This document shows, in pieces, positions 1,272 to 38,410 of a DNA stretch of 38,410 bases. Made by a program: the position numbers and the translations under genes. Origin of the DNA: Saccoglossus kowalevskii (taxonomy: Eukaryota; Hemichordata; Enteropneusta; Harrimaniidae); the NCBI RefSeq assembly GCF_000003605.2, contig NW_003105208.1:1-38410 (forward strand), in the 5' to 3' direction. The notes beneath the pieces were generated by a model. It was not told the DNA's origin. It did no database searches and saw nothing but the letters and a program-made list of their open reading frames with translations. The stretch's first letter is position 1, and the number at the start of each line of letters is the position of its first letter.

Positions 1272-1341
1272 AATGTTGAACGGATCAAAATCTGCTCACA
1301 CTGGCACTCATTATGGAGGTAGACACCACATAGCTTGTCGG
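1272..1341 (+). repeat. Reference monomer of the 70-bp satellite
   Basis: This first copy equals the consensus as far as I can judge by eye, so it serves as the coordinate frame used here: position 1 is the first A of AATGTTGAAC and position 70 the last G of TTGTCGG. Landmarks are CpG at 10-11 and 68-69, GATC at 12-15, the variable segment CATTATGG at 38-45, GAGGTAGACACC at 45-56 and AGCT at 61-64. Positions 55-70 form an imperfect dyad: CCACA can pair with TGT(C)GG around the loop TAGCT, with one bulged C. AluI (AGCT) and MboI (GATC) sites recur once per monomer, so digestion should give a 70-bp ladder. Confidence 0.9.
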
Positions 1342-2601
1342 AATGTTGAACGGATCAAAATCTGCTCACACTGGCACGCATTATGGAGTTAGACACCACA
1401 TAGCTTGTCGGAATGTTGAACGGATCAAAATCTGCTCACACTGGCACTCATTATGGAGGTAGACACCACATAGCTTGTCATAATGTTGAACGGATCAAAA
1501 TCTGCTCACACTGGCACTCATTATGGAGGTAGACACCACATAGCTTGTCGGAATGTTGAATGGATCAAAATCTGCTCACACTGGCACTCATTATGGAGGT
1601 AGACACCACATAGCTTGTCGGAATGTTGAATGGATCAAAATCTGCTCACACTGGCACTCATTATGGAGGTAGACACCACATAGCTTGTCAGAATGTTGAA
1701 CGGATCAAAATCTGCTCACACTGGCACTCATTATGGAGGTAGACACCACATAGCTTGTCGGAATGTTGAACGGATCAAAATCTGCTCACACTGGCACTCA
1801 TTATGGAGGTAGACACCACATAGCTTGTCGGAACGTTGAACGGATCAAAATCTGCTCACCCTGGCACTCATTATGGAGGTAGACACCACATAGCTTGTCG
1901 AAATGTTGAACGGATCAAAATCTGCTCACACTGGCACTCATTATGGAGGTAGACACCACATAGCTTGTCGGAATGTTGAACGGATGAAAATCTGCTCACA
2001 CTGGCACTCATTATGGAGGTAGACACCACATAGCTTGTCAGAATGTTGAACGGATCAAAATCTGCTCACACTGGCACTCATTATGGAGGTAGACACCACA
2101 TAGCTTGTCGGAATGTTGAACGGATCAAAATCTGCTCACACTGGCACTCATTATGGAGGTAGACACCACATAGCTTGTCGGAATGTTGAACGGATCAAAA
2201 TCTGCTCACATTGGCACTCATTATGGAGGTAGACACCACAAAGCTTGTCGGAATGTTGAACGGATCAAAATCTGCTCACACTGGCACTCATTATGGAGGT
2301 AGACACCGCATAGCTTGTCATAATGTTGAACGGATCAAAATCTGCTCACACTGGCACTCATTATGGAGGTAGACACCACAAAGCTTGTCGGAATGTTGAA
2401 CGGATCAAAATCTGCTCACCCTGGCACTCATTATGGAGGTAGACACCACATAGCTTGTCGGAATGTAGAATGGATCAAAATCTGCTCACACTGGCACTCA
2501 TTATGGAGGTAGACACCACATAGCTTGTCGGAATGTTGAACGGATCAAAATCTGCTCACACTGGCACTCATTATGGAGGTAGACACCACATAGCTTGTCG
2601 G

Positions 2602-3231
2602 AATGTTGAACGGATCAAAATCTGCTCACAATGGCACTCATCAGGGAGGTAGACACCACATAGCTTGTCGGAATGTTGAACGAATCAAAATCTACTCACA
2701 CTGGCACTCATTATGCAGGTAGAGACCACATAGCTTGTCGGAATGTTGAACGGATCAAAATCTGCTCACACTGACACTCGTTATGGAGGTAGACACCACA
2801 TAGCTTGTCGGAATGTTGAACGGATCAAAATCTGCTCTCACTGGCACTCCTTATGGAGGTAGACACCACATAGCTTGTCGGAATGTTGAAGGGATCAAAA
2901 TCTGCTCACACTGGCACTCATTATGGAGGTAGACACCACATAGCTTGTCGGAATGTTGAACGGATCAAAATCTGCTCACACTGGCACTCATTATGGAGGT
3001 AGACATCATATAGCTTGTCGGAATGTTGAACGGATGAAAATCTGCTCACACTGGCACTCATTATGGAGGTAGACACCACATAGCTTGTCGTAATGTTGAA
3101 CGGATCAAAATCTGCTCACACTGGCACTCATTATCGAGGTAGATACCACATAGCTTGTCGTAATGTTGAACGGATCAAAATCTGCTCACACTGGCAATCT
3201 TTATGGAAGTAGACACCACATAGCTTGTCGG
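2602..3231 (+). repeat. Higher-order module P, copy 1 (9 monomers)
   Basis: This block is a string of marked monomers in fixed order: CAATGG with CATCAGGG, then CTACTC with TGCAGGTAGAG, CTGACACTCG, CTCTCACTGG, GAAGGGATC, GACATCATATAG, GGATGAAAAT, TTATCGAGG, and GGCAATCTTTATGGAAG. The same order returns at 28589-29288, where one extra monomer (GAATGG with TATAGAGG) lies between the seventh and eighth markers. The shared markers are too many and too ordered for independent mutation. The two copies therefore derive from one segment, now about 26 kb apart. Confidence 0.9.
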
Positions 3232-3302
3232 AATGTAGAATGGATCAAAATCTGCTCACACTGGCACTCATTATGTGAGGTAGACACCACATAGCTTGTC
3301 GG

Positions 3303-3792
3303 AATGTTGAACGGATCAAAATCTGCTCACACTGGCACTCATTATGGAGGTAGACACCACATAGCATGTCGGAATGTTGAACGGATCAAAATCTGCTCAC
3401 ACTGGCACTCATCATGGAGGTAGACACCACATAGCTTGTCGGAATGTTGAACGGATCAAAATCTGCTCACACTGGCACTCATCATGGAGGTAGACACCAC
3501 ATAGCTTGTCGGAATGTTGAACGGATCAAAATCTGCTCACACTGGCACTCATCATGGAGGTAGACACCACATAGCTTGTCGGAATGTTGAAGGGATCAAA
3601 ATCTGCTCACACTGGCACTCATTATCGAGGTAGACACCACATAGCTTGTCGAAATGTTGAACGGATCAAAATCAGCTCACACTGGCACTCATTATGGAGG
3701 TAGACACCACATAGCATGTTGGAATGTTGAACGGATCAAAATCTGCTCACACTGGCACTCATTATGGAGGTAGACACCACATAGCTTGTCGG
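3303..3792 (+). repeat. Module S, copy 1 (7 monomers)
   Basis: Three consecutive monomers carry CATCATGG, followed by one with GAAGGGATC and TTATCGAGG, one starting after TCGA and ending AGCATGTTGG, and a plain one. The same series recurs at 20324-20813, an offset of 17,021 bases. In the part checked I noted one clear difference (CAGCTC near 3673 against CTGCTC). A shorter relative with GAAGGGATC and TTATCGAGG is near 35.87 kb. Confidence 0.85.
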
Positions 3793-4143
3793 AATGTTGA
3801 ACGGATCAAAATCTGCTCACACTGGCAATCATTATGGAGGTAGACACCACATAGCTTGTTGGAATGTTGAACGGATCAAAATCTGCTCACACTGGCACTC
3901 GTTATGTAGGTAGACAACACATAGCTTGTTGGAATGTTGAACGGATCAAATCTGCTCACACTGGCACTCATTATGGAGGTAGACACCACATAGCATGTGT
4001 GGGAATGTTGAATGGATCAAAATCTGCTCACACTGGCACTCGTTTTGGAGGTAGACACCACATAGCTTGTCGGAATGTTGAACGGATCAAAATCTGCTCA
4101 CACTGGCACTCCTTATGGAGGTAGACACCACATAGCTTGTCGG

Positions 4144-4773
4144 AATGTTGAACGGATCAAAATCTGCTCACACTGGCACTCGTTTTGGAGGTAGACACCA
4201 CATAGCTTGTCGGAATGTTGAACGGATCAAAATCTGCTAACACTGGCACTCCTTATGGAGGTAGACACCACATAGCTTGTCGGAATGTTGAACGGATCAA
4301 AATCTGCTCACACTGGCACTCATTATGGAGGTAGACACCACATAGCTTGTCGGAATATTGAACGGATCAAAATCTGCTCACACTGGCACTCATTATGGAG
4401 GTAGACACCACACAGCTTGTCGGAATGTTGAACGGATCAAAATCTGCTCACACTGGCACTCATTATGGAGGTAGACACCATATAGCTTGTCGAAATGTTG
4501 AACGGATCAAAATCCGCTCACACTGGCACTCATCATGGAGGTAGACACCACATAGATTGTCGGAATGTTGAACGGATCAAAATCTGCTCACACTGGCATT
4601 CATTATAGAGGTAGACACCACATAGCTTGTCGGAATGTTGAACGGATCAAAATCTGCTCACACTGGCACTCATTATAGAGGTAGACACCACATACCTTGT
4701 CGGAATGTTGAATGGATCAAAATCTGCTTACACTGGCACTCATCATGGAGGTAGACACCACATAGCTTGTGGG
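4144..4773 (+). repeat. Module A-J, diverged copy 1
   Basis: The copy has the order GTTTTGG, CTAACACTGG with CCTTATGG, plain, AATATTG, CATATAGC, AAATCCGCTC, CATTCATTATAG, TATAG with CATACC, and CTTACAC with CATCATGG. It differs from the best copies by CACAGC in the fourth monomer, CATCATGG and AGATTG in the sixth, and CTGCTC instead of CGGCTC in the eighth. A partial version (last four monomers) follows at about 5125-5404. Confidence 0.85.
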
Positions 4774-5404
4774 AATGTTGAACGGATCAAAATCTGCTCA
4801 CACTGGCACTCATTATGGAGGTAGACACCACATAGCTTGTCGGAATGTTGAACGGATCAAAATCTGCTCACACTGGCACTTCTTTATGGAGGTAGACACC
4901 ACATAGCTTGTCGGAATGTTGAACGGATCAAAATCTGCTCACACTGGCACTCATTATGGAGGAAGACACCATATAGCTTGTCGGAATGTTGAACGGATCA
5001 AAATCCGCTCACACTGGCACTCATTATGGAGGTAGACACCACATAGCTTGTCGGAATGTTGAACGTATCAAAATCTGCTCACACTGGCACTCTTTATGGA
5101 GGTAGACACCACATAGCTTGTCGAAATGTTGAACGGATCAAAATCTGCTCACACTGGCATTCATTATAGAGGTAGACACCACATAGCTTGTCGGAATGTT
5201 GAACGGATCAAAATCGGCTCACACTGGCACTCATTATAGAGGTAGACACCACATACCTTGTCGGAATGTTGAATGGATCAAAATCTGCTTACACTGGCAC
5301 TCATCATGGAGGTAGACACCACATAGCTTGTCCGAATGTTGAACGAATCAAAATCTTCTCACACTGGCACTCATTATAGAGGTAGACACCACATAACTTG
5401 TCGG

Positions 5405-6104
5405 AATGTTGAACGGATCAAAATCTGCTCACACTGGCACTCGTTTTGGAGGTAGACACCACATAGCTTGTCGGAATGTTGAACGGATCAAAATCTGCTA
5501 ACACTGGCACTCCTTATGGAGGTAGACACCACATAGCTTGTCGGAATGTTGAACGGATCAAAATCTGCTCACACTGGCACTCATTATGGAGGTAGACACC
5601 ACATAGCTTGTCGGAATATTGAACGGATCAAAATCTGCTCACACTGGCACTCATTATGGAGGTAGACACCACATAGCTTGTCGGAATGTTGAACGGATCA
5701 AAATCTGCTCACACTGGCACTCATTATGGAGGTAGACACCATATAGCTTGTCGGAATGTTGAACGGATCAAAATCCGCTCACACTGGCACTCTTTATGGA
5801 GGTAGACACCACATAGCTTGTCGAAATGTTGAACGGATCAAAATCTGCTCACACTGGCATTCATTATAGAGGTAGACACCACATAGCTTGTCGGAATGTT
5901 GAACGGATCAAAATCGGCTCACACTGGCACTCATTATAGAGGTAGACACCACATACCTTGTCGGAATGTTGAATGGATCAAAATCTGCTTACACTGGCAC
6001 TCATCATGGAGGTAGACACCACATAGCTTGTCCGAATGTTGAACGGATCAAAATCTTCTCACACTGGCACTCATTATAGAGGTAGACACCACATAACTTG
6101 TCGG
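5405..6104 (+). repeat. Module A-J, full copy 2 (10 monomers, 700 bp)
   Basis: Ten monomers in the order: A GTTTTGG; B CTAACAC with CCTTATGG; C plain; D AATATTG; E CATATAGC; F AAATCCGCTC with CTTTATGG; G CATTCATTATAG; H AAATCGGCTC with CATACC; I GAATGG with CTTACAC and CATCATGG; J TCCG before it, AAATCTTCTC and CATAAC within. Comparing monomer by monomer with 32089-32788 I found a single difference (GAATGG against GAATAG in I). This is the best-defined higher-order unit in the window. Confidence 0.93.
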
Positions 6105-6734
6105 AATGTTGAACGGATCAAAATCTGCTCACACTGGCACTCTTTATGGAGGTAGACACCACATAGCTTGTCGGAATGTTGAACGGATCAAAATCTGCTC
6201 ACACTGGCACTCATCATGGAGGTAGACACCACATAGATTGTCGGAATATTGAACGGATCAAAATCTGCTCACATTGGCACTCATTATGGAGGTAGACACC
6301 ACATAGCTTGTCGGAATGTTGAACGGATCAAAATCTGCTCACACTGGCACTCCTTATGGAGGTAGACACCACATAGCTTGTCGGAATGTTGAACGGATCA
6401 AAATCTGCTCACACTGGCACTCATCATGGAGGTAGACACCACATAGCTTGTCGGAATGTTGAATGGATCAAAATCTGCTCACACTGGCACTCATCATGGA
6501 GGTAGACACCACATAGCTTGTCGGAATGTTGAACGGATCAAAATCTGCTCACACTGGCACACATTATGGAGGTAGACACCACATAGCTGTCGGAATGTTG
6601 AACGGAACAAAATCTGCTCACACTGGCACTCATTATCGAAGGTAGACACCACATAGCTTGTCGAAAATTTGAACGGATCAAAATCTGCTCACACTGGCAC
6701 TCATTGTGAAGGTAGACACCACATAGCATGTTGG

Positions 6735-7364
6735 AATGTTGAATGGATCAAAATCTGCTCACACTGGCACTCGTTTTGGAGGTAGACACCACATAGCTTG
6801 TCGGAATGTTGAACGGATCAAAATCTGCTAACACTGGCACTCCTTATGGAGGTAGACACCACATAGCTTGTCGGAATGTTGAACGGATCAAAATCTGCTC
6901 ACACTGGCACTCTTTATGGAGGTAGACACCACATAGCTTGTCGGAATATTGAACGGATCAAAATCTGCTCACACTGGCACTCATTATGGAGGTAGACACC
7001 ACATAGCTTGTCGGAATGTTGAACGGATCAAAATCTGCTCACACTGGCACTCATTATGGAGGTAGACACCATATAGCTTGTCGGAATGTTGAACGGATCA
7101 AAATCCGCTCACACTGGCACTCTTTATGGAGGTAGACACCACATAGCTTGTCGAAATGTTGAACGGATCAAAATCTGCTCACACTGGCATTCATTATAGA
7201 GGTAGACACCACATAGCTTGTCGGAATGTTGAACGGATCAAAATCGGCTCACACTGGCACTCATTATAGAGGTAGACACCACATACCTTGTCGGAATGTT
7301 GAATAGATCAAAATCTGCTTACACTGGCACTCATCATGGAGGTAGACACCACATAGATTGTCGG
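6735..7364 (+). repeat. Module A-I, copy 3 (9 monomers)
   Basis: The copy lies 1330 bases (19 monomers) after copy 2 and repeats markers A to I. Differences noted are CTTTATGG in the third monomer, GAATAG in I, and AGATTG with TCGG at the end of I in place of AGCTTGTCCG. After 7364 the order breaks off into near-consensus monomers. It is preceded by TGAAGG with AGCATGTTGG, the same lead-in found before A copies near 17.9, 27.1, 31.9 and 34.0 kb. Confidence 0.9.
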
Positions 7365-7434
7365 AATGTTGAACGGATCAAAATCTGCTCACATCTGGCA
7401 CTCATTATGGAGGTAGACACCACATAGCTTGTCG

Positions 7435-10400
7435 GAATGTTGAACGGATCAAAATCTGCTCACACTGGCACTCATTATGGAGGTAGACACCACAAAGCTT
7501 GTCGGAATGTTGAACGGATCAAAATCTGCTCACACTGGCACTCATTATGGAGGTAGACACCACATAGCTTGTCGGAATGTTGAACGGATCAAAATCTGCT
7601 CACACTGGCACTCATTATGGAGGTAGACACCACATAGCTTGTCGGAATGTTGAACGGATCAAAATCTGCTCACACTGGTACTCATTATGGAGGTAGACAC
7701 CACATAGCTTGTCGGAATGTTGAACGGATCAAAATCCGCTCACACTGGCACTCATTATGGAGGTAGACACCACATAGCTTGTCGGAATGTTGAACGGATC
7801 AAAATCTGCTCACACTGGCACTCATTATGGAGGTAGACACCACATAGCTTGTCGGAATGTTGAACGGATCAAAATCTGCTCACACTGGCACTCATTATGG
7901 AGGTAGACACCACATAGCTTGTCGGAATGTTGAACGGATCAAAATCTGCTCACACTGGCACTCATTATGGAGGTAGACACCACATAAGCTTGTCGGAATG
8001 TTGAACGGATCAAAATCCGCTCACACTGGCACTCATTATGGAGGTAGACACCACATAGCTTGTCGGAATGTTGAACGGATCAAAATCCGCTCACACTGGC
8101 ACTCATTATGGAGGTAGACACCACATAGCTTGTCGGAATGTTGAACTAATCAAAATCTGCTCACACTGGCACTCATTATGGAGGTAGACACCACATAGCT
8201 TGTCGGAATGTTGAACGGATCAAAATCTGCCCACACTGGCACTCATTATGGAGTTAGACACCACAAAGCTTGTCGGAATGTTGAACGGATCAAAATCTGC
8301 TCACACTGGCACTCATTATGGAGGTAGACACCACAAAGCTTGTTGGAATGTTGAATGGATCAAAATCTGCTCACCCTGGCACTCATTATGGAGGTAGACA
8401 CCACATAGCTTGTAGGAATGTTGAACGGATCAAAATCTGCTCACACTGGCACTCATTATGGAGGTAGACACCACATAGCTTGTCGGAATGTTGAACGGAT
8501 CAAAATCTGCTCACACTGGCACTCATTATGGAGGTAGACACCACATAGCTTTTCGAATGTTGTACGGATCAAAATCTGCTCACACTGGCACTCATTATGG
8601 AGGTAGACACCACATAGCTTGTCGGAATGTTGAACGGATCAAAATCCGCTCACACTGGCACTCATTATGGAGGTAGACACCACATAAGCTTGTCGGAATG
8701 TTGAACGGATCAAAATCTGCTCACACTGGCACTCATTATGGAGGTAGACACCACATAGCTTGTCGGAATGTTGAACGGATCAAAGTCCGCTCACACTGGC
8801 ACTCATTATGGAGGTAGACACCACATAGCTTGTCGGAATGTTGAACGGATCAAAATCTGCTCACACTGGCACTCATTATGGAGGTAGACACCACATAGCT
8901 TTTCGGAATGTTGTACGGATCAAAATCTGCTCACACTGGCACTCATTATGGAGGTAGACACCACATAGCTTGTCGGAATGTTGAACGGATCAAAATCTGC
9001 TCACACTGGCACTCATTATGGAGGTAGACACCACATAGCTTGTCGGAATGTTGAACGGATCAAAATCTGCTGACACTGGCACTCATTATGGAGGTAGACA
9101 CCACATAAGCTTGTCGGAATGTTGAACGGATCAAAATCCGCTCACACTGGCACTCATTATGGAGGTAGACACCACATAGCTTGTCGGAATGTTGAACGGA
9201 TCAAAATCTGCTCACACTGGTACTCATTATGGAGGTAGACACCACATAGCTTGTCGGAATGTTGAACGGATCAAAATCCGCTCACACTGGCACTCATTAT
9301 GGAGGTAGACACCACATAGCTTGTCGGAATGTTGAACGGATCAAAATCTGCTCACACTGGCACTCATTATGGAGGTAGACACCACATAGCTTGTCGGAAT
9401 GTTGAACGGATCAAAATCTGCTCACACTGGCACTCATTATGGAGGTAGACACCACAAAGCTTGTCGGAATGTTGAACGGATCAAAATCTGCTCACACTGG
9501 CACTCATTATGGAGGTAGACACCACATAGCTTGTCGGAATGTTGAACGGATCAAAATCCGCTCACACTGGCACTCATTATGGAGGTAGACACCACATAGC
9601 TTGTCGGAATGTTGAACGGATCAAAATCTGCTCACACTGGCACTCATTATGGAGGTAGACACCACATAGCTTGTCGGAATGTTGAATGGATCAAAATCTG
9701 CTGACACTGGCACTCATTATGGAGGTAGACACCACATAAGCTTGTCGGAATGTTGAACGGATCAAAATCCGCTCACACTGGCACTCATTATGGAGGTAGA
9801 CACCACATAGCTTGTCGGAATGTTGAACGGATCAAAATCTGCTCACACTGGCACTCATTATGGAGGTAGACACCACATAGCTTGTCGGAATGTTGAACGG
9901 ATCAAAATCCGCTCACACTGGCACTCATTATGGAGGTAGACACCACATAGCTTGTCGGAATGTTGAACGGATCAAAATCTGCTCACACTGGCACTCATTA
10001 TGGAGGTAGACACCACATAGCTTGTCGGAATGTTGAACGGATCAAAATCTGCTCACACTGGCACTCATTATGGAGGTAGACACCACAAAGCTTGTCGGAA
10101 TGTTGAACGGATCAAAATCTGCTCACACTGGCACTCATTATGGAGGTAGACACCACATAGCTTGTCGGAATGTTGAACGGATCAAAATCCGCTCACACTG
10201 GCACTCATTATGGAGGTAGACACCACATAGCTTGTCGGAATGTAGAATAGATCAAAATCTGCTCACACTGGCACTCATTATGGAGGTAGACACCACATAG
10301 CTTGTCATAATGTTGAACGGATCAAAATCTGCTCACACTGGCACTCATTATGGAGGTAGACACCACATAGCTTGTCGGAATGTTGAAAGGATCAAAATCT

Positions 10401-12830
10401 GCTCACACTGGCACTCATTATGGAGGTAGACACCACATAGCTTGTCAGAATGTTGAACGGATCAAAATCTGCTCACACTGGCACTCATTATGGAGGTAGA
10501 CACCACATAGCTTGTCGGAATGTTGAATGGATCAAAATCTGCTCACACTGGCACTCATTATGGAGGTAGACACCACATAGCTTGTCAGAATGTTGAACGG
10601 ATCAAAATCTGCTCACACTGGCACTTATTATGGAGGTAGACACCACATAGCTTGTCGGAATGTTGAACGGATCAAAATCTGCTCACACTGGCACTCATTA
10701 TGGAGGTAGACACCACATAGCTTGTCGGAATGTTGAACGGATCAAAATCTGCTCACACTGGCACTCAGTATGGAGGTAGACACCACATAGCTTGTCGAAA
10801 TGTTGAACGGATCAAAATCTGCTCACACTGGCACTCATTATGGAGGTAGACTCCACATAAGCTTGTCGGAATGTTGAATGGATCAAAATCTGCTCACACT
10901 GGCACTCATTATGGAGGTAGACACCACATACCTTGTCGGAATGTAGAATGGATCAAAATCTGCTCACACTGGCACTCATTATGGAGGTAGACACCACATA
11001 GCTTGTCATAATGTTGAACGGATCAAAATCTGCTCACACTGGCACTCATTATGGAGGTAGACACCACATAGCTTGTCGGAATGTTGAATGGATCAAAATC
11101 TGCTCACACTGGCACTCATTATGGAGGTAGACACCACATAGCTTTTCGGAATGTTGTACGGATCAAAATCTGCTCACACTGGCACTCATTATGGAGGTAG
11201 ACACCACATAGCTTGTCGGAATGTTGAACGGATCAAAATCTGCTCACACTGGCACTCATTATGGAGGTAGACACCACATAGCTTGTCGGAATGTTGAACG
11301 GATCAAAATCTGCTGACACTGGCACTCATTATGGAGGTAGACACCACATAAGCTTGTCGGAATGTTGAACGGATCAAAATCCGCTCACACTGGCACTCAT
11401 TATGGAGGTAGACACCACATAGCTTGTCGGAATGTTGAACGGATCAAAATCTGCTCACACTGGTACTCATTATGGAGGTAGACACCACATAGCTTGTCGG
11501 AATGTTGAACGGATCAAAATCCGCTCACACTGGCACTCATTATGGAGGTAGACACCACATAGATTGTCGGAATGTTGAACGGATCAAAATCTGCTCACAC
11601 TGGCACTCATTATGGAGGTAGACACCACATAGCTTGTCGGAATGTTGAACGGATCAAAATCTGCTCACACTGGCACTCATTATGGAGGTAGACACCACAA
11701 AGCTTGTCGGAATGTTGAACGGATCAAAATCTGCTCACACTGGCACTCATTATGGAGGTAGACACCACATAGCTTGTCGGAATGTTGAACGGATCAAAAT
11801 CCGCTCACACTGGCACTCATTATGGAGGTAGACACCACATAGCTTGTCGGAATGTTGAACGGATGAAAATCTGCTCACACTGGCACTCATTATGGAGGTA
11901 GACACCACATAGCTTGTCGGAATGTTGAATGGATCAAAATCTGCTCACACTGGCACTCATTATGGAGGTAGACACCACATAGCTTGTCGGAATGTTGAAC
12001 GGATCAAAATCTGCTCACCCTGGCACTCATTATGGAGGTAGACACCACATAGCTTGTCGAAATGTTGAACGGATCAAAATCTGCTCACACTGGCACTCAT
12101 TATGGAGGTAGACACCACATAGCTTGTCGGAATGTTGAACGGATCAAAATCTGCTCACACTGGCACTCATTATGGAGGTAGACACCACATAGCTTGTCAG
12201 AATGTTGAACGGATCAAAATCTGCTCACACTGGCACTCATTATGGAGGTAGACACCACATAGCTTGTCGGAATGTTGAACGGATCAAAATCTGCTCACAC
12301 TGGCACTCATTATGGAGGTAGACACCACATAGCTTGTCGGAATGTTGAACGGATCAAAATCTGCTCACACTGGCACTCATTATGGAGGTAGACACCACAA
12401 AGCTTGTCGGAATGTTGAACGGATCAAAATCTGCTCACACTGGCACTCATTATGGAGGTAGACACCACATAGTTTGTCGGAATGTTGAACGGATCAAAAT
12501 CTGCTCACACTGGCACTCATTATGGAGGTAGACACCACATAGCTTGTCGGAATGTTGAACGGATCAAAATCTGCTCACACTGGTACTCATTATGGAGGTA
12601 GACACCACATAGCTTGTCGGAATGTTGAACGGATCAAAATCTGCTCACACTGGCACTCATTATGGAGGTAGACACCACATAGCTTGTCGGAATGTTGAAT
12701 GGATCAAAATCTGCTCACACTGGCACTCATTATGGAGGTAGACACCACATAGCTTGTCGGAATGTTGAACGGATCAAAATCTGCTCACACTGGCACTCAT
12801 TATGGAGGTAGACACCACAAAGATTGTTGG
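7435..12830 (+). repeat. Homogenised domain of near-consensus monomers
   Basis: Most monomers here differ from the consensus at zero to two positions. The recurring variants are few: CACAAAGC and CACATAAGC (both create HindIII AAGCTT), AAATCCGCTC, CTGGTACTC and GAATGG. This contrasts with the flanking 3.3-7.4 and 13-19 kb stretches, which carry many variants. CACATAAGC is a 1-base insertion that makes a 71-bp monomer; it is copied many times, so it spread by duplication. Confidence 0.75.
9047..10308 (+). repeat. Tandem pair of a 9-monomer unit (631 bp)
   Basis: Unit 1 is 9047-9677 and unit 2 is 9678-10308. Each begins with CTGACAC and the 71-bp CACATAAGC monomer and then shows AAATCCGCTC monomers and one CACAAAGC monomer at the same places. 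Differences include GAATGG at the start of unit 2, CTGGTACTC only in unit 1, and the last monomer, which in unit 2 is GTAGAATAG ending in GTCAT. A further copy is at 11290-11850. The longer stretch 8907-9607 matches 11150-11850, with AGATTG near 11571 as the only difference I noted. Confidence 0.88.
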
Positions 12831-16334: not shown

Positions 16335-16754
16335 AATGTTGAACGGATCAAAATCTGCTCACACTGGCACTCATCATGGAGGTAGACACCGCATAGCTTG
16401 TCGGAATGTTGAACGGATCAAAATCTGCTCACACTGGCACTCATTATGGAGGTAGACACCACAAAGCTTGTCGGAATGTTGAACGGATCAAAATCTGCTC
16501 ACACTGGCACTCATTATGGAGGAAGACACCACATAGCATGTCGGAATGTTGAACGGATCAAAATCTGCTCACACTGGCACTCATCATGGAGGTAGACACC
16601 GCATAGCTTGTCGGAATGTTGAACGGATCAAAATCTGCTCACACTGGCACTCATTATGGAGGTAGACACCACAAAGCTTGTCGGAATGTTGAACGGATCA
16701 AAATCTGCTCACACTGGCACTCATTATGGAGGAAGACACCACATAGCATGTCGG
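16335..16754 (+). repeat. Tandem duplication of a 3-monomer unit (210 bp)
   Basis: Unit 1 (16335-16544) and unit 2 (16545-16754) have the same three monomers in order: CATCATGG with ACCGCATAG, CACAAAGC, and GGAAGACACC with AGCATG. I saw no difference between the units. Two perfect copies side by side suggest a very recent duplication. Confidence 0.88.
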
Positions 16755-25018: not shown

Positions 25019-25507
25019 AATGTTGAACGGATCAAATCTGCTCACACTGGCACTCATTATGGAGGTAGACACCACATAGCTTGTCGGAATGTTGAACGGA
25101 TCAAAATCTGCTCACACTGGCACTCATTATGGAGGTAGACACCACAAAGCTTGTCGGAATGTTGAACGGATCAAAATCTGCTCACACTGGCACTCATTAT
25201 GGAGGTAGACACCACATAGCTTGTCGGAATGTTGAACGGATCAAAATCTGCTCACACTGGCACTCATTATGGAGGTAGACACCACAAAGCTTGTCGGAAT
25301 GTTGAACGGATCAAAATCTGCTCACCCTGGCACTCATTATGGAGGTAGACACCACATAGCTTGTCGGAATGTTGAACGGATCAAAATCTGCTCACACTGG
25401 CACGCATTATGGAGTTAGACACCACATAGCTTGTCGGAATGTTGAACGGATCAAAATCTGCTCACACTGGCACTCATTATGGAGGTAGACACCACATAGC
25501 TTGTCAT

Positions 25508-25857
25508 AATGTTGAACGGATCAAAATCTGCTCACACTGGCACTCATTATGGAGGTAGACACCACATAGCTTGTCGGAATGTTGAATGGATCAAAATCTG
25601 CTCACACTGGCACTCATTATGGAGGTAGACACCACATAGCTTGTCAGAATGTTGAACGGATCAAAATCTGCTCACACTGGCACTCATTATGGAGGTAGAC
25701 ACCACATAGCTTGTCGGAATGTTGAACGGATCAAAATCTGCTCACACTGGCACTCATTATGGAGGTAGACACCACATAGCTTGTCGGAATGTTGAACGGA
25801 TCAAAATCTGCTCACCCTGGCACTCATTATGGAGGTAGACACCACATAGCTTGTCGA
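25508..25857 (+). repeat. Module M, copy at 25.5 kb
   Basis: This block equals 22147-22496 and, apart from one monomer, 1482-1901. It places sequence from the left end of the array again in the middle of the array, 24,026 bases away. Confidence 0.85.
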
Positions 25858-26768
25858 AATGTTGAACGGATCAAAATCTGCTCACACTGGCACTCATTAT
25901 GGAGGTAGACACCACATAGCTTGTCGAAATGTTGAACGGATCAAAATCTGCTCACACTGGCACTCATTATGGAGGTAGACACCACATAGCTTGTCGGAAT
26001 GTTGAACGGATCAAAATCTGTTCACACTGGCACTCATATTGGAGGTAGACACCACATAGCTTGTTGGAATGTTGAACGGATCAAAATCTGCTCACACTGG
26101 CACTCATTATGGAGGTAGACACCACATAGCTTGTCGGAATGTTGAACGGATCAAAATCTGCTCACACTGGCACTCATTATGGAGGTAGACACCACATAGC
26201 TTGTCGAAATGTTGAACGGATCAAAATCTGCTCACACTGGCACTCATTATAGAGGTAGACACCACATAGCTTGTCGGAATGTTGAACGGATCAAAATCGG
26301 CTCACACTGGCACTCATTATAGAGGTAGACACCACATACCTTGTCGGAATGTTGAATGGATCAAAATCTGCTTACACTGGCACTCATCATGGAGGTAGAC
26401 ACCACATAGCTTGTCCGAATGTTGAACGGATCAAAATCTTCTCACACTGGCACTCATTATAGAGGTAGACACCACATAACTTGTCGGAATGTTGAACGGA
26501 TCAAAATCTGCTCACACTGGCACTTCTTTATGGAGGTAGACACCACATAGCTTGTCGGAATGTTGAACGGATCAAAATCTGCTCACACTGGCACTCATTA
26601 TGGAGGTAGACACCATATAGCTTATCGGAATGTTGAACGGATCAAAATCTGCTCACACTGGCACTCATCATGGAGGTAGACACCACATAGATTGTCGGAA
26701 TGTTGAACGGATCAAAATCTGCTCACATCGGCACTCATTATGGAGGTAGACACCACATAGCTTGTCGG

Positions 26769-27468
26769 AATGTTGAACGGATCAAAATCTGCACACACTG
26801 TCACTCATTATCGAGGTACACACCACATAGCTTGTTGGAATGTTGAACGGATCAAAATCTGCTCACACTGGCACTCATCATGGAGGTAGACACCACATAG
26901 CTTGTCGGAATGTTGAACGGATCAAAATCTGCTCACTCCGGCACTCATTGTGGATGTAGACACCACATAGCTTGTCGGAATGTTGAACGGAACAAAATCT
27001 GCTCACACTGGCACTCATTATCGAGGTAGACACCACATAGCTTGTCGAAATGTTGAACGGATCAAAATCTGCTCACACTGGCACTCATTATGAAGGTAGA
27101 CACCACATAGCATGTTGGAATGTTGAATGGATCAAAATCTGCTCACACTGGCACTCGTTTTGGAGGTAGACACCACATAGCTTGTCGGAATGTTGAACGG
27201 ATCAAAATCTGCTCACACTGGCATGCCTTATGGAGGTAGACACCACATAGCTTGTCGGAATGTTGAACGGATCAAAATCTGCTCACACTGGCACTCGTTT
27301 TGGAGGTAGACACCACATAGCTTGTCGGAATGTTGAACGGATCAAAATCTGCTAACACTGGCACTCCTTATGGAGGTAGACACCACATAGCTTGTCGGAA
27401 TGTTGAACGGATCAAAATCTGCTCACACTGGCACTCATTATGGAGGTAGACACCACATAGCTTGTCGG
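26769..27468 (+). repeat. Module R, copy 1 (10 monomers, 700 bp)
   Basis: The order is GCACACACTGTCACTC with GGTACACACC, CATCATGG, CTCACTCCGG with TTGTGGATG, GGAACAAAATC with TTATCGAGG, TGAAGG with AGCATGTTGG, GAATGG with GTTTTGG, CATGCCTT, GTTTTGG, CTAACAC with CCTTATGG, and plain. It returns at 33699-34398, exactly 6930 bases (99 monomers) later, with about four differences that I could find, two of them in CATGCC against CACTCC. Confidence 0.9.
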
Positions 27469-27958
27469 AATGCTGAACGGATCAAAATCTGCTCACACTG
27501 GCACTCATTATGGAGGTAGACACCACATAGCTTGTCGGAATGTTGAACGGATCAAAATCTGCTCACACGGGCACTCATTATGGACATAGACACCACATAG
27601 CTTGTCGGAATGTTGAACGGATCAAAATCTGCTCACACTGGCACTCATTATGGAGGTAGACACCACATAGCTTGTTGGAATGTTGAACGGATCAAAATCT
27701 GCTCACACTGGCACTCATTATGGAGGTAGACACCACACAGCTTGTCGGCATGTTGAACGGATCAAAATCTGCTCACACTGGCACTCATTATGGAGGTAGA
27801 CACCACACAGCTTGTCGGAATGTTGAATGGATCAAAATCTGCTCACACTGGGACTCATTATGGAGGTAGACACCACACAGCTTGTCGGAATGTTGAATGG
27901 ATCAAAATCTGCTCACACTGGGACTCATTATGGAGGTAGACACCACATAGCTTGTCGG

Positions 27959-30900
27959 AATGTTGAACGGATGAAAATCTGCTCACACTGGCACTCATTA
28001 TGGAGGTAGACACCACATAGCTTGTCGGAATGTTGAATGGATCAAAATCTGCTCACACTGGCACTCATTATAGAGGTAGACACCACATAGCTTGTCGTAA
28101 TGTTGAACGGATCAAAATCTGCTCACACTGGCACTCATTATCGAGGTAGACACCACATAGCTTGTCGTAATGTTGAACAGATCAAAATCTGCTCACACTG
28201 GCAATCTTTATGGAAGTAGACACCACATAGCTTGTCGGAATGTAGAATGGATCAAAATCTGCTCACACTGGCACTCATCATGGATGTAGACACCACATAG
28301 CTTGTCGGAATGTAGAATGGATCAAAATCTGCTCACACTGGCACTCATTATGGAGGTAGACACCACATAGCTTGTCGGAATGTTGAACGGATCAAAATCT
28401 GCTCACACTGGCACTCATTATGGAGGTAGACACCACATAGCTTGTCGGAATGTTGAATGGATCAAAATCTGCTCACACTGGCACTCATTATGGAGGTAGA
28501 CACCACATAGCTTGTCGGAATGTTGAACGGATCAAAATCTGCTCACACTGGCACTCATTATGGAGGTAGACACCACATAGCTTGTTGGAATGTTGAACGG
28601 ATCAAAATCTGCTCACAATGGCACTCATCAGGGAGGTAGACACCACATAGCTTGTCGGAATGTTGAACGAATCAAAATCTACTCACACTGGCACTCATTA
28701 TGCAGGTAGAGACCACATAGCTTGTCGGAATGTTGAACGGATCAAAATCTGCTCACACTGACACTCGTTATGGAGGTAGACACCACATAGCTTGTCGGAA
28801 TGTTGAACGGATCAAAATCTGCTCTCACTGGCACTCCTTATGGAGGTAGACACCACATAGCTTGTCGGAATGTTGAAGGGATCAAAATCTGCTCACACTG
28901 GCACTCATTATGGAGGTAGACACCACATAGCTTGTCGGAATGTTGAACGGATCAAAATCTGCTCACACTGGCACTCATTATGGAGGTAGACATCATATAG
29001 CTTGTCGGAATGTTGAACGGATGAAAATCTGCTCACACTGGCACTCATTATGGAGGTAGACACCACATAGCTTGTCGGAATGTTGAATGGATCAAAATCT
29101 GCTCACACTGGCACTCATTATAGAGGTAGACACCACATAGCTTGTCGTAATGTTGAACGGATCAAAATCTGCTCACACTGGCACTCATTATCGAGGTAGA
29201 CACCACATAGCTTGTCGTAATGTTGAACGGATCAAAATCTGCTCACACTGGCAATCTTTATGGAAGTAGACACCACATAGCTTGTCGGAATGTAGAATGG
29301 ATCAAAATCTGCTCACACTGGCACTCATCATGGATGTAGACACCACATAGCTTGTCGGAATGTAGAATGGATCAAAATCTGCTCACACTGGCACTCATTA
29401 TGGAGGTAGACACCACATAGCTTGTCGGAATGTTGAACGGATCAAAATCTGCTCACACTGGCACTCATTATGGAGGTAGACACCACATACCTTGTCGGAA
29501 TGTTGAATGGATCAAAATCTGCTCACACTGACACTCATTATGGAGGTAGACACCACATAGCTTGTCGGAATGTTGAATGGATCAAAATCTGCTCACACTG
29601 GCACTCATTATGGAGGTAGACACCACATAGCTTGTCGGAATGTTGAATGGATCAAAATCTGCTCACACTGGCATTCATTAAAGAGGTAGACACCACATAG
29701 CTTGTCGGAATGTTGAACGGATCAAAATCTGCTCACACTGGCATTCATTATAGAGGTAGACACCACATAGCTTGTCGGAATGTTGAACGGATCAAAATCG
29801 GCTCACACTGGCACTCATTATGGAGGTAGACACCACATAGCTTGTCGGAATGTTGAACGGATCAAAATCTGCTCACACTGGCATTAATTATGGAGGTAGA
29901 CACCACATAGCTTTTCGGAATGTTGAACGGATCAAAATCTGCTCACACTGGCACTCATTATGGAGGTAGACACCACATAGCTTGTTGGAATGTTGAACGG
30001 ATCAAAATCTGCTCACAATGGCACTCATCAGGGAGGTAGACACCACATAGCTTGTCGGAATGTTGAACGAATCAAAATCTACTCACACTGGCACTCATTA
30101 TGCAGGTAGAGACCACATAGCTTGTCGGAATGTTGAACGGATCAAAATCTGCTCACACTGGCACTCGTTATGGAGGTAGACACCACATAGATTGTCGGAA
30201 TGTTGAACGGATCATAATCTGCTCACACTGGCACTTATTATGGAGGTAGACACCGCATAGCTTGTCAGAATGTTGAACGGATCAAAATCTGCTCACACTG
30301 GCACTCATTATTGAGGTAGACACCGCATAGCTTGTCGGAATGTTGAACGGATCAAAATCTGCTCACACTGGCACTCATTATGGAGGTAGACACCGCATAG
30401 CTTGTCGAAATGTTGAACGGATCAAAATCTGCTCACACTGGCACTCATTATGGAGGTAGACACCACATAGCTTGTCGGAATGTTGAACGGATCAAAATCT
30501 GCTCACACTGGTACTCATTATGGAGGTAGACACCACATAGCTTGTCGGAATGTTGAATGGATCAAAATCTGCTCACACTGGCACTCATTATGGAGGTAGA
30601 CACCATATAGCTTGTCGGAATGTTGAACGGATCAAAATCTGCTCACACTGGCACTCATTATGGAGGTAGACATCATATAGCTTGTCGGAATGTTGAACGG
30701 ATGAAAATCTGCTCACACTGGCACTCATTATGGAGGTAGACACCACATAGCTTGTCGGAATGTTGAATGGATCAAAATCTGCTCACACTGGCACTCATTA
30801 TAGAGGTAGACACCACATAGCTTGTCGTAATGTTGAACGGATCAAAATCTGCTCACACTGGCACTCATTATCGAGGTAGACACCACATAGCTTGTCGTAA

Positions 30901-31178
30901 TGTTGAACGGATCAAAATCTGCTCACACTGGCAATCTTTATGGAAGTAGACACCACATAGCTTGTCGGAATGTAGAATGGATCAAAATCTGCTCACACTG
31001 GCACTCATCATGGATGTAGACACCACATAACTTGTCGGAATGTAGAATGGATCAAAATCTGCTCACACTGGCACTCATTATGGAGGTCGACACCACATAG
31101 CTTGTCGGAATGTTGAACGGATCAAAATCTGCTCACACTGGCACTCATTATGGAGGTAGACACCACATACCTTGTCGG
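27959..31178 (+). repeat. Nested copies of module P
   Basis: Markers of module P occur three times here. The stretch 27959-28378 matches 29009-29428 (offset 1050, 15 monomers). The stretch 28939-29498 matches 30619-31178 (offset 1680, 24 monomers). The first three P monomers at 28589-28798 match 29989-30198 (offset 1400, 20 monomers). The offsets are exact multiples of 70 but differ from each other, so the region grew by several overlapping duplications, not by repetition of one fixed unit. Confidence 0.88.
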
Positions 31179-32088
31179 AATGTTGAATGGATCAAAATCT
31201 GCTCACACTGGCACTCATTATGGAGGTAGACACCATATAGCTTGTCGGAATGTTGAACGGATCAAAATCCGCTCACACTGGCACTCATTTATGGAGGTAG
31301 ACACCACATAGCTTGTCGAAATGTTGAACGGACAAAATCTGCTCACACTCGCATTCATTATAGAGGTAGACACCACATAGCTTGTCGGAATGTTGAACGG
31401 ATCAAAATCGGCTCACACTGGCACTCATTATAGAGGTAGACACCACATACCTTGTCGGAATGTTGAATGGATCAAAATCTGCTTACACTGGCACTCATTA
31501 TGGAGGTAGACACCACATAGCTTGTCCGAATGTTGAACGGATCAAAATCTGCTCACACTGGCACTCATTATAGAGGTAGACACCACATAACTTGTCAGAA
31601 TGTTGAACGGATCAAAATCTGCTCACACTGGCACTCTTTATGGAGGTAGACACCACATAGATTGTCGGAATGTTGAACGGATCAAAATCTGCTCACACTG
31701 GCACTCATTATGGAGGTAGACACCACATAGCTTGTCGGAATGTTGAACGGATCAAAATCTGCTCACACTGGCACACATTATGGAGGTAGACACCACATAG
31801 CTTGTCGGAAAGTTGAACGGAACAAAATCTGCTCACACTGGCACTCATTATCGAGGTAGACACCACATAGCTTGTCGAAATGTTGAACGGATCAAAATCT
31901 GCTCACACTGGCACTCATTATGAAGGTAGACACCACATAGCATGTTGGAATGTTGAATGGATCAAAATCTGCTCACACTGGCACTCGTTTTGGAGGTAGA
32001 CACCACATAGCTTGTCGGAATGTTGAACGGATCAAAATCGGCTCACACTGGCACTCATTATAGAGGTAGACACCACATACCTTGTCGG

Positions 32089-32788
32089 AATGTTGAACGG
32101 ATCAAAATCTGCTCACACTGGCACTCGTTTTGGAGGTAGACACCACATAGCTTGTCGGAATGTTGAACGGATCAAAATCTGCTAACACTGGCACTCCTTA
32201 TGGAGGTAGACACCACATAGCTTGTCGGAATGTTGAACGGATCAAAATCTGCTCACACTGGCACTCATTATGGAGGTAGACACCACATAGCTTGTCGGAA
32301 TATTGAACGGATCAAAATCTGCTCACACTGGCACTCATTATGGAGGTAGACACCACATAGCTTGTCGGAATGTTGAACGGATCAAAATCTGCTCACACTG
32401 GCACTCATTATGGAGGTAGACACCATATAGCTTGTCGGAATGTTGAACGGATCAAAATCCGCTCACACTGGCACTCTTTATGGAGGTAGACACCACATAG
32501 CTTGTCGAAATGTTGAACGGATCAAAATCTGCTCACACTGGCATTCATTATAGAGGTAGACACCACATAGCTTGTCGGAATGTTGAACGGATCAAAATCG
32601 GCTCACACTGGCACTCATTATAGAGGTAGACACCACATACCTTGTCGGAATGTTGAATAGATCAAAATCTGCTTACACTGGCACTCATCATGGAGGTAGA
32701 CACCACATAGCTTGTCCGAATGTTGAACGGATCAAAATCTTCTCACACTGGCACTCATTATAGAGGTAGACACCACATAACTTGTCGG
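32089..32788 (+). repeat. Module A-J, full copy 4 (10 monomers, 700 bp)
   Basis: All ten markers A to J are present in the order given for 5405-6104, with one difference (GAATAG in I). A partial H-I-J string lies just upstream at 31389-31598, and another G-H-I-J string at 26208-26487. The near identity across 26.7 kb implies recent transfer between distant parts of the array. Confidence 0.93.
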
Positions 32789-33698
32789 AATGTTGAACGG
32801 ATCAAAATCTGCTCACACTGGCACTCTTTATGGAGGTAGACACCACATAGATTGTCGGAATGTTGAACGGATCAAAATCTGCTCACACTGGCACTCATTA
32901 TGGAGGTAGACACCACATAGCTTGTCGGAATGTTGAACGGATCAAAATCTGCTCACACTGGCACTCATTATGGAGGTAGACACCACATAGCTTGTCAGAA
33001 TGTTGAACGGATCAAAGTCTGCTCACACTGGCACTCGTTACGGAGGTAGACACCACATAGCTTGTCGGAATGTTGAACGGATCAAAATCTGCTCACACTA
33101 GCACTCATTATGGAGGTAGACACCACATAGCTTGTCGGAATGTTGAACGGATCAAAATCTGCTCACACTGGCACTCACTATGGAGGTAGACACCACATAG
33201 CTTGTCAGAATGTTGAACGGATCAAAATCTGCTCACACTGGCACTTATTATGGAGGTAGACACCACATAGCTTGTCGGAATGTTGAACGGATCAAAATCT
33301 GCTCACACTGGCACTCCTTATGGAGGTAGACACCACATAGCTTGTCAGAATGTTGAACGGATCAAAATCTGCTCACACTGTCACTCATTATGGACGTAGA
33401 CACCACATAGCTTGTCGGAATGTTGAACGGATCAAAATCTGCTCGCACTGGCACTCATTATGCAGGTACACACCACATAGCTTGTCGGAATGTTGAACGG
33501 ATCAAAATCTGCTCACACTGGCACTCATTATGGAGTTAGACACCACATAGCTTGTCGGAATGTTGAACGGATCAAAATCTGCTCACACTGGCACTCATTA
33601 TGGAGGTAGACACCACATAGCTTGTCGGAATGTTGAACGGATCAAAATCTGCTCAAACTGGCAATCGTTATGGAGGTAGACACCACATAGCTTGTTGG

Positions 33699-34398
33699 AA
33701 TGTTGAACGGATCAAAATCTGCACACACTGTCACTCATTATCGAGGTACACACCACATAGCTTGTTTGAATGTTGAACGGATCAAAATCTGCTCACACTC
33801 GCACTCATCATGGAGGTAGACACCACATAGCTTGTCGGAATGTTGAACGGATCAAAATCTGCTCACTCCGGCACTCATTGTGGATGTAGACACCACATAG
33901 CTTGTCGGAATGTTGAACGGAACAAAATCTGCTCACACTGGCACTCATTATCGAGGTAGACACCACATAGCTTGTCGAAATGTTGAACGGATCAAAATCT
34001 GCTCACACTGGCACTCATTATGAAGGTAGACACCACATAGCATGTTGGAATGTTGAATGGATCAAAATCTGCTCACACTGGCACTCGTTTTGGAGGTAGA
34101 CACCACATAGCTTGTCGGAATGTTGAACGGATCAAAATCTGCTCACACTGGCACTCCTTATGGAGGTAGACACCACATAGCTTGTCGGAATGTTGAACGG
34201 ATCAAAATCTGCTCACACTGGCACTCGTTTTGGAGGTAGACACCACATAGCTTGTCGGAATGTTGAACGGATCAAAATCTGCTAACACTGGCACTCCTTA
34301 TGGAGGTAGACACCACATAGCTTGTCGGAATGTTGAACGGATCAAAATCTGCTCACACTGGCACTCATTATGGAGGTAGACACCACATAGCTTGTCGG
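33699..34398 (+). repeat. Module R, copy 2 (10 monomers, 700 bp)
   Basis: This is the second copy of 26769-27468. It runs directly into the start of another A-J copy at 34189, so modules R and A-J overlap: the last monomers of R are A, B and C of the next module. Confidence 0.9.
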
Positions 34399-34677
34399 AA
34401 TATTGAACGGATCAAAATCTGCTCACACTGGCACTCATTATGGAGGTAGACACCACACAGCTTGTCGGAATGTTGAACGGATCAAAATCTGCTCACACTG
34501 GCACTCATTATGGAGGTAGACACCATATAGCTTGTCGAAATGTTGAACGGATCAAAATCCGCTCACACTGGCACTCTTTATGGAGGTAGACACCACATAG
34601 CTTGTCGAAATGTTGAACGGATCAAATCTGCTCACACTGGCATTCATTATGGAGTAGACACCACATAGCTGTCGGAA
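34189..34677 (+). repeat. Module A-G, partial copy 5
   Basis: Markers A to F are present. The fourth monomer has CACAGC and the fifth ends TCGA, as in copy 1 at 4144 and unlike copies 2-4, so this copy groups with copy 1. The seventh monomer (from 34609) carries three single-base losses: ATCAAATCTG, GGAGTAGAC and AGCTGTCGG. Confidence 0.85.
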
Positions 34678-34885
34678 TGTTGAACGGATCAAAATCTGCT
34701 CACACTGGCATTCATTATAGAGGTAGACACCACATAGCTTGTCGGAATGTTGAACGGATCAAAATCGGCTCACACTGGCACTCATGATGGAGGTAGACAC
34801 CACATAGCTTGTCGGAATGTTGAACGGATCAAAATCTGCTCACACTGGCACTCATTATGGAGGTAGACACCACATAGCTTGTCGG

Positions 34886-35515
34886 AATGTTGAACGGATC
34901 AAAATCTGCTCACACTGGCACTCCTTATGGAGGTAGACACCACATAGCTTGTCGGAATGTTGAACGGATCAAAATCTGCTCACACTGCCACTCATTATGG
35001 AGGTAGACACCACATAGCTTGTCGGAATGTTGAACGGATCAAAATCTGCTCACACTGCCACTCATTATGGAGGTAGACACCACATAGCTTGTCGGAATGT
35101 TGAACGGATCAAAATCTGCTCACACTGGCACTCATTATGGAGGTAGATACCACATAGCTTGTCGGAATGTTGAACGGATCAAAATCTGCTCACACTGGCA
35201 CTCATTATGGAGGTAGACACCACATAGCTTGTCGGAATGTTGAACGGATCAAAATCTGCTCACACTGGCACTCCTTATGGAGGTAGACACCACATAGCTT
35301 GTCGGAATGTTGAACGGATCAAAATCTGCTCACACTGCCACTCATTATGGAGGTAGACACCACATAGCTTGTCGGAATGTTGAACGGATCAAAATCTGCT
35401 CACACTGCCACTCATTATGGAGGTAGACACCACATAGCTTGTCGGAATGTTGAACGGATCAAAATCTGCTCACACTGGCACTCATTATGGAGGTAGACAC
35501 CACATAGCTTGTCGG
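34886..35515 (+). repeat. Tandem duplication of a 5-monomer unit (350 bp)
   Basis: The order CCTTATGG, CTGCCACTC, CTGCCACTC, near-plain begins at 34886 and again at 35236. CTGCCACTC is not seen elsewhere in the window as far as I noticed. The second unit lacks the TAGATACC change and breaks off at 35516, where a GAACAGATC with GTTTTGG monomer follows. Confidence 0.87.
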
Positions 35516-37309
35516 AATGTTGAACAGATCAAAATCTGCTCACACTGGCACTCGTTTTGGAGGTAGACACCACATAGCTTGTCGGAATGTTGAACGGATC
35601 AAAATCTGCTCACACTGGCACTCCTTATGGAGGTAGACACCACATAGCTTGTCGGAATGTTGAACGGATCATAATCTGCTCACACTGGCACTCATTATGG
35701 AGGTAGACAACACATAGCTTGTCGGAATGTTGAACGGATCAAAATCTGCTCACACTGGCACTCATTATGGAGGTAGACACCACATAGCTTGTCGGAATGT
35801 TGAACGGATCAAAGTCTGCTCACACTGGCACTCATCATGGAGGTAGACACCACATAGCTTGTCGGAATGTTGAAGGGATCAAAATTTGCTCACACTGGCA
35901 CTCATTATCGAGGTAGACACCACATAGCTTGTCGAAATGTTGAACGGATCAAAATCTGCTCACACTGGCACTCATTATGGAGGTAGACACCACATAGCCT
36001 GTCGGAATGTTGAACGGATCAAAATCTGCTCACACTGGCACTCATTATGGAGGTAGACATCACATAGCCTGTCGGAATGTTGAACGGATCAAAATCTGCT
36101 CACACTGGCTCTCATTATGGAGGTAGACACCACATAGCTTGTCGGAATGTTGAACGGATCAAAATCTGCTCACACTGGCACTCATTATGGAGGTAGACAC
36201 CACATAGCTTGTCGGAATGTAGAATGGATCAAAATCTGCTCACACTGGCACTCATTATGGAGGTAGACACCACATAGCTTGTCATAATGTTGAACGGATC
36301 AAAATCTGCTCACACTGGCACTCATTATGGAGGTAGACACCACATAGCTTGTCGGAATGTTGAATGGATCAAAATCTGCTCACACTGGCACTCATTATGG
36401 AGGTAGACACCACATAGCTTGTCATAATGTTGAACGGATCAAAATCTGCTCACACTGGCACTCATTATGGAGGTAGACACCGCATAGCTTGTCGGAATGT
36501 TGAACGGATCAAAATCTGCTCACACTGGCACTCATTATGGAGGTAGACACCGCATAGCTTGTCAGAATGTTGAACGGATCAAAATCTGCTCACACTGGCA
36601 CTCATTATGGAGGTAGACTACACATAAGCTTGTCGGAATGTTGAATGGATCAAAATCTGCTCACACTGGCACTCATTATGGAGGTAGACACCACATAGCT
36701 TGTCGGAATGTAGAATGGATCAAAATCTGCTCACACTGGCACTCATTATGGAGGTAGACACCACATAGCTTGTCATAATGTTGAACGGATCAAAATCTGC
36801 TCACACTGGCACTCATTATGGAGGTAGACACCACATAGCTTGTCGGAATGTTGAATGGAGCAAAATCTGCTCACACTGGCACTCATTATGGAGGTAGACA
36901 CCACATAGCTTGTCATAATGTTGAACGGATCAAAATCTGCTCACACTGGCACTCATTATGGAGGTAGACTCCACATAAGCTTGTCGGAATGTTGAATGGA
37001 TCAAAATCTGCTCACACTGGCACACATTATGGAGGTAGACACCACATAGCTTGTCAGAATGTTGAACGGATCAAAATCTGCTCACACTGGCACTCATTAT
37101 GGAGGTAGACACCACATAGCTTGTCGGAATGTTGAACGGATCAAAATCTGCTCACACTGGCTCTCATTATGGAGGTAGACACCGCATAGCTTGTCGGAAT
37201 GTTGAACGGATCAAAATCTGCTCACACTGGCACTCATTATGGAGGTAGACACCGCATAGCTTGTCGGAATGTTGAACGGATCAAAATCTGCTCACACTGG
37301 CACTCATTA

Positions 37310-37475
37310 TGAAGTAGACACCACATAGCTTGTCGGAATGTTGAATGGATCAAAATCTGCTCACACTGGCACTCATTATGGAGGTAGACACCACATAGCT
37401 GTGGAATGTTGAACGGATCAAATCTGCTCACACTAGCACTCATTATGGAAGTAGACACCACATAGCTGTCGGAAT
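37310..37475. repeat. Third indel cluster
   Basis: Base losses fall close together: GAAGTAGAC, AGCTGTGGAATG (two bases), ATCAAATCTG and AGCTGTCGG. They are all losses in or next to short runs, unlike the substitutions that dominate the rest of the array. Error in the assembled sequence is likely. Confidence 0.55.
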
Positions 37476-38383
37476 GTTGAACGGATCAAAATCTACTCAC
37501 AATGGCACTCATCATGGAGGTAGACACTACATAGCTTGTCGGAATGTTGAACGAATCAAAATCTGCTCACACTGGCGCTCATTATGGAGGTAGACACCAC
37601 ATAGCTTGTCGGAATGTTGAACGAATCAAAATCTGCTCACACTGGCACTCATTATGGAGGTAGACACCACAAAGCTTTTCGGAATGTTGTACGGATCAAA
37701 ATCTGCTCACACTGGCACTCATGATGGAGGTTGACACCACATAGCTTGTCGGAATGTTGAACGAATCAAAATCTGCTCACACTGGTACTCATTATGGAGG
37801 TAGACACCACATAGCTTGTCGGAATGTTGAACGAATCAAAATCTGCTCACACAGGCACTCATTATGGAGGTAGACACCACATAGCTTTTCGGAATGTTGT
37901 ACGGATCAAAATCTGCTCACACTGGCACTCATTATGGAGGTAGACACCACATAGCTTGTCGGAAAGTTGAACGGATCTAAATCTGCTCACACTGGCACTC
38001 TTTATGGAAGTAGACACCACATAGCTTTTCGGAATGTTGTACGGATCAAAATCTGCTCACACTGGCACTCATTATGGAGGTAGATACCACATAGCTTGTC
38101 GGAATGTTGAACGGATCAAAATCTGCTCACACTGGCACGCATTATGGAGGTAGACACCACATAGCTTGTCGGAATGTTGAACGGATCAAAATCTGCCCAC
38201 ACTGGCACTCATTATGGAGGTAGACACCACATAGCTTGTCGGAATGTTGAACGGATCAAAATCTGCTCACACTGGCACTCATTATGGAGGTAGACTCCAC
38301 ATAAGCTTGTCGGAATGTTGAACGGATCAAAATCTTCTCACACTGGCACTCATTATAGAGGTAGACATCACATATCTTGTCGG

Positions 38384-38410
38384 AATGTTGAACGGATCAA
38401 AATCTGCTCA
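38384..38410 (+). repeat. Partial monomer at the right edge
   Basis: The last copy is cut after 27 bases by the end of the window. The array therefore has no right boundary here and its full length is unknown. The copy before it has TTCTCACAC, TATAGAGG and CATATCTTG, close to marker J of module A-J. Confidence 0.95.

Follow-up and report, generated by a model that had tools for sequence, protein, structure and literature searches.

A 37-kb array of 70-bp satellite units with mosaic block duplications and a probable older duplication of about 25 kb

The stretch of Saccoglossus kowalevskii DNA analysed here (the window, 38,410 bp) is one entire contig, C36, of an assembly of 572 Mb in 4,830 contigs, and it holds a satellite array of 70-bp units that adjoins a long terminal repeat (LTR). 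An earlier interpretation made from the letters of this DNA, which we call the sequence-only reading, had proposed an unbroken array of about 37 kb and some 530 copies, and this is borne out by two approaches. Tandem Repeats Finder (TRF) reports a single array (1272-38410, period 70, 530.4 copies, 95% matches), and wrap-around alignment to the consensus places 530 full monomers and a final 27-bp piece head to tail and unbroken. The array and the features at its left side are as follows.

1..1272, no strand assigned: LTR of a dispersed LTR-type element, about 80 bp short at its far end (the contig start), final bases GACA
1272..38410, forward strand: 70-bp satellite array, from TRF and wrap-around alignment; base 1272 can be read as the LTR end or as the first base of the unit
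1273..1277, forward strand: ATGTT, monomer positions 2-6, read from the sequence as the likely LTR target site, and called likely because its partner copy would lie off the contig

The units are very similar to one another, with a mean divergence from the consensus of 1.74 differences per monomer, or 2.5% (insertions apart; n=530). When insertions are counted, 93 of the 530 monomers are identical to the consensus and there are 252 distinct types; when they are ignored, the figures become 96 and 243. Single-base indels, one to three each, occur in 38 monomers. Twelve of the 530 are 71-bp monomers that carry an extra A, and these have been copied along with the blocks that contain them, which explains why some module sizes given below are one base off a multiple of 70. 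No partial monomer was found among the 530 units of the wrap-around alignment, and all units stay in register across 37 kb. The window holds no open reading frame of at least 100 aa (ATG, GTG or TTG starts, table 11), and the whole has the character of satellite DNA, being a long run of similar non-coding units set head to tail. Singletons make up just 49 of the 954 variant events, a scarcity that fits strong homogenisation. Variants per unit are fewer at 7576-13884 (1.03-1.37 per 30-unit bin versus 1.27-2.47 in most other bins), and this stretch has perhaps been homogenised more recently. No Rfam family reached its gathering threshold in positions 1-3000 of the window, and a two-monomer stretch treated as DNA folds no better than shuffles (z 0.67); the RNA fold of two consensus units, given without a shuffle baseline, is -34.2 kcal/mol.

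The left flank is an LTR of about 1.4 kb, identified as such by the TG...CA ends of its copies and the exact 5-bp duplications flanking them. Counting the window itself, bases 1-1271 have matches at 24 genomic places (35 rows), and 13 of those rows, its own included, end at query base 1271. One end of the copies reads TGTC and the other GACA or TACA; three of the four two-ended copies have exact 5-bp target duplications (L003 ATGTC, L005 GCATG, L007 ATGTT), the fourth, L004, having an inexact one. Within the window only one end of the LTR is present, where a solo LTR and the LTR of a longer element look alike. The position of the array's first bases leads us to infer that the element inserted into a satellite unit. 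Flanking 5-mers containing ATG are seen in five of the ten other LTR copies with readable ends. The flank had also been considered as a site for an inverted, diverged unit; the likeness was judged to be chance similarity and the sequence is part of the LTR. Since the left limit of the array (1272) is the last base of the inserted LTR and the right limit (38410) is the end of the contig, no natural edge of the array is observed.

Close copies of the unit in this assembly are confined to this one contig and to one orientation. An exact 37-base core of the unit occurs 190 times on the forward strand of the whole assembly, and 190 of these are in the window; likewise, for a 21-base core with at most two mismatches the count is 513 for the assembly and 513 for the window. 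Neither core (37-mer exact, 21-mer with at most two mismatches) has a reverse-strand copy anywhere in the assembly. This pattern search covers close relatives in assembled sequence only, and was run without a positive control on the LTR motif. Exact monomer cores of 37 and 43 bases have no match in prokaryote or viral contigs, which are unlikely places for an animal satellite, and monomer pieces on both strands have none in the literature text searched. The unit had initially been recognised as no named satellite family, and in these same sources, which include no eukaryotic satellite library, none is matched.

The array is a mosaic of multi-unit blocks that recur both side by side and far apart. 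The longest run of identical monomers shared between two places is 8 units, compared to at most 4 in 30 shuffles of unit order, and the richest matching run contains 14 variant sites, compared to at most 6. Using a log-odds score, we found 55 block pairs scoring at least 12, which are not mutually independent, and the highest score in 20 shuffles, 19.8, is surpassed by 28 of them. Lags between paired blocks span 3 to 429 monomers, and recurrence goes beyond chance for adjacent blocks as well as for blocks up to 30 kb apart, in agreement with the earlier claim that modules recur adjacently and tens of kilobases away. The principal modules, of sizes that had all been proposed previously, are listed here.

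26769..27468, forward strand: 700-bp module, copy at 33699-34398, 99.4%
5405..6104, forward strand: 700-bp module, copy at 32089-32788, 99.9%; part copy at 6735-7294
28939..29498, forward strand: 560-bp module, copy at 30619-31178, 99.6%
23197..24318, forward strand: 561-bp modules, adjacent tandem pair (23197/23758), 99.5%
8977..10238, forward strand: 631-bp modules, adjacent tandem pair (8977/9608), 99.7%; third related copy at 11220-11850
34816..35515, forward strand: 350-bp (five-unit) modules, adjacent pair, one difference
16335..16754, forward strand: 210-bp modules, adjacent pair, 100%; statistically weak alone

All seven module sizes were recovered, and they differ in how far they stand above chance. 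The 560-, 561- and 631-bp modules and both 700-bp modules had no equal at any lag in 60 shuffles, and 3 of the 60 held a match to the 350-bp module (34816/35166) at some lag. The 210-bp module (16335/16545) is weak, being equalled at some lag in 55 of 60 shuffles and at its own lag in 4 of 500. The 210-, 350- and 631-bp pairs have log-odds scores of 17.5, 13.3 and 16.4, under the 20-shuffle maximum of 19.8. The length of the block equals the spacing for the adjacent 561- and 631-bp pairs, and for the 350-bp pair too; the first two are simple tandem duplications and the third is probably another.

No constant higher-order unit dominates the array, given that the signal is weak for all lags beyond the nearest neighbours. 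Among the 199 lags compared, similarity is strongest at 1 and 2 monomers (z -8.7 and -6.8), followed by 7 (-4.5), 24 (-4.1) and 39 (-3.9), and the effects are small at all of these top lags; the single multi-monomer period of a classical higher-order repeat (HOR) was absent across the 199. What is found is mosaic multi-monomer duplication, with many high-identity block pairs of varied length and lag. The sequence-only reading was thus correct that there is no single fixed period, and incomplete in that a broad peak with coarse collinearity exists at 23-31 kb. Similarly, its proposal of overlapping segmental duplication agrees with blocks paired at many lags, while the word "ongoing" goes beyond what one sequence can show.

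The long-range order is seen best in rare units, defined as the 50 recurring types with at least two variants (143 copies, 172 pairs). Pair distances have a near peak, with 39 pairs at 0-29 units versus 18.4 expected, and a far peak, with 63 of the 172 pairs at 330-449 units (23-31 kb) versus 20.6 expected. With unit order shuffled in blocks of 10, 20 or 30 units, none of 2000 shuffles at each block size attained 63 far pairs. When positions at most 6 units apart are joined into clusters and pairs more than 250 units apart are considered, five clusters on the left and their distant partners follow an identical rank order (1 of 120 permutations), a coarse collinearity that relates two parts of the array.

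1342..11079, forward strand: putative left member of a decayed large duplication, monomers 1-139, coarsely collinear with 25368-38313
25368..38313, forward strand: putative right member of the same, monomers 344-528, with further local duplications

The far peak together with the coarse collinearity makes a decayed duplication of about 25 kb the best explanation of the distant copies, and one old event of this size, later disturbed by local duplications, is probably the simplest account. Toy simulations point in the same direction. With small tandem duplications alone, medians were 0-4 far pairs and 5 of 100 runs attained the 77 observed (lag above 250); when 2% of duplications spanning 150-449 units were added, 42 of 50 runs did so.

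Taken as a whole, we consider it likely that this is a non-coding satellite, grown and homogenised by in-register recombination at two scales that include a duplication of about 25 kb. Homologous recombination between the array's own units would account for both growth and homogenisation, and it predicts what is seen, namely that all units are in register with no partial ones. The route may have been unequal exchange, conversion or break-induced replication. Duplication would have acted on blocks of about 3 to 10 units, in the clear cases placing the copy head to tail beside its source, and the left third of the array would have been copied by a far larger duplication of about 25 kb, or by more than one. 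The large copy would then have been blurred by local duplications and deletions, leaving matching blocks 23-31 kb apart in broadly preserved order. The LTR element would have inserted into a unit, with the assembly breaking within the LTR.

Several points weigh against this explanation. The 330-449 range was picked after viewing the histogram, and units shared within a block are not independent. The simulations were unfitted, and their pair totals overshoot (medians 315-1756 versus 172 observed) so that none matched. Furthermore, when copied blocks were inserted at random sites in the simulations, 35 of 50 runs attained the far-pair count, and pairs off the main diagonal do exist, such as the block 3303-3792, which matches 20324-20813. 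Both of these last observations favour the foremost alternative, in which distant copies arose by transfer of blocks to random sites of the array, through long-tract gene conversion or re-insertion of excised circles, with no large duplication. However, the observed pairs concentrate at 330-449 units and are collinear, and the random-site simulations gave a near-pair share of only 0.10-0.11 (median), below the 39 of 172 observed. Random transfer is therefore an unlikely account of the distant copies, if one that deserves some weight.

Assembly error is a further point against a two-scale history, and a somewhat less probable alternative is that part of the mosaic reflects mis-joined or collapsed satellite reads, which would be compatible with growth by recombination at two scales for the remainder. 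The array reaches the contig end, and homopolymer-type single-base indels are clustered, with runs in neighbouring units at monomers 176-178, 292-294 and 514-516 (about 13600-13814, 21724-21937 and 37268-37472); these runs are probably patches of low consensus quality. Against such an origin, the blocks have rare substitutions in common and are 99-100% alike at many places, and adjacent duplications of 350-631 bp would fit well inside a long read, should the reads have been of that type.

More speculatively, the satellite might be confined to a single chromosomal locus in a hemichordate-like animal, for instance one centromere or a sex- or supernumerary-chromosome region, its mosaic, decayed 25-kb super-repeat recording several rounds of block duplication at that place; we regard this specific form as doubtful. 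It is very improbable that the satellite arose by expansion of a tandem repeat within the flanking LTR element or at its end, an origin that the available text of one paper reports for Lathyrus sativus satellites (PMC7004042) and that the exact start of the array at the LTR end might suggest, since, at E up to 0.01, the 11 loci L003-L013 gave no monomer match (each locus taken as the match plus about 1.5 kb on each side, with L007 and L008 overlapping, N in the flanks of L012 and L013, and interiors of full-length elements outside the scope), while two-ended copies end in flanking duplications and unrelated sequence, and flank-monomer similarity is weak (plus-strand score 39, reached by 39 of 200 base shuffles; minus-strand score 45, reached by 3 of 200).

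Elsewhere in the assembly, cox1 lies on a 17,037-bp mitochondrial contig, C4830 (L046, L047), whose order, from translated frames read by eye with a family search for cox1 only, includes atp6, cox3, nd3, nd4L, nd4, nd5, cob and an inverted nd6. The nd1 and cox2 genes are on one strand and cox1 on the opposite one, which is unusual unless it is an assembly fault. In an alignment of cox1 with its best PDB chain, 7o37_a, read by eye, the nine aligned ATA codons stand opposite five I, two V, one L and one M residue, and 17 of 19 ATG codons align with M. As ATA codons fall mostly at I and ATG codons at M, ATA in the code of this contig probably specifies isoleucine. The accessible part of a study of hemichordate mitochondria describes both nd5 beside cob and ATA as isoleucine (PMC2697986), and we judge it likely that the host is hemichordate-like. 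A lancelet source, weighed on the strength of the mitochondrial gene arrangement, was rejected, since the Asymmetron order differs (PMC2034537) and ATA sits mainly at isoleucine sites. A separate observation is an open stretch of 225 aa resembling pentraxin or laminin-G domains at L045:6993-7670.

The array is a short-unit animal satellite in which block duplications at two scales can still be read. It bears on how such arrays grow and leaves the accepted picture unchanged; a brief search of literature text turned up no hemichordate satellite studies in the portions covered. The closest likeness is to the CEN178 satellite of Arabidopsis, which is not known to have one fixed period either. In the excerpts available, a TRASH analysis lists many multi-monomer duplications of CEN178 rather than one HOR string (PMC10199239), and another study plots ATHILA retrotransposon positions along CEN178 arrays, with CENH3 enrichment (PMC10804481). 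Judged from these partial accounts, mosaic multi-monomer block duplication is found in both arrays. Compared by description, they differ in that CEN178 has a 178-bp unit and arrays of 1-3 Mb (as excerpted from PMC8122249), whereas here a 70-bp unit fills 37 kb on one contig. A similar comparison can be made to human alpha satellite, for which recombination (unequal crossover, conversion, break-induced replication) is proposed as the source of array change in the text seen of PMC11034957. The likeness lies in change by recombination; alpha satellite has characteristic HOR periods per chromosome (per the extract of PMC10199239), whereas the 70-bp array shows none. Among animals, the satellite of the beetle Palorus subdepressus has a unit of comparable size, 72 bp, but is described in the accessible portion of PMC8122249 as present on all 20 chromosomes and making up 20% of the genome, a genome-wide distribution that differs, by description, from the single contig here. 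Mosaic block duplication has already been described, for example in CEN178, and the 70-bp array is a further example of it that indicates no new mechanism.

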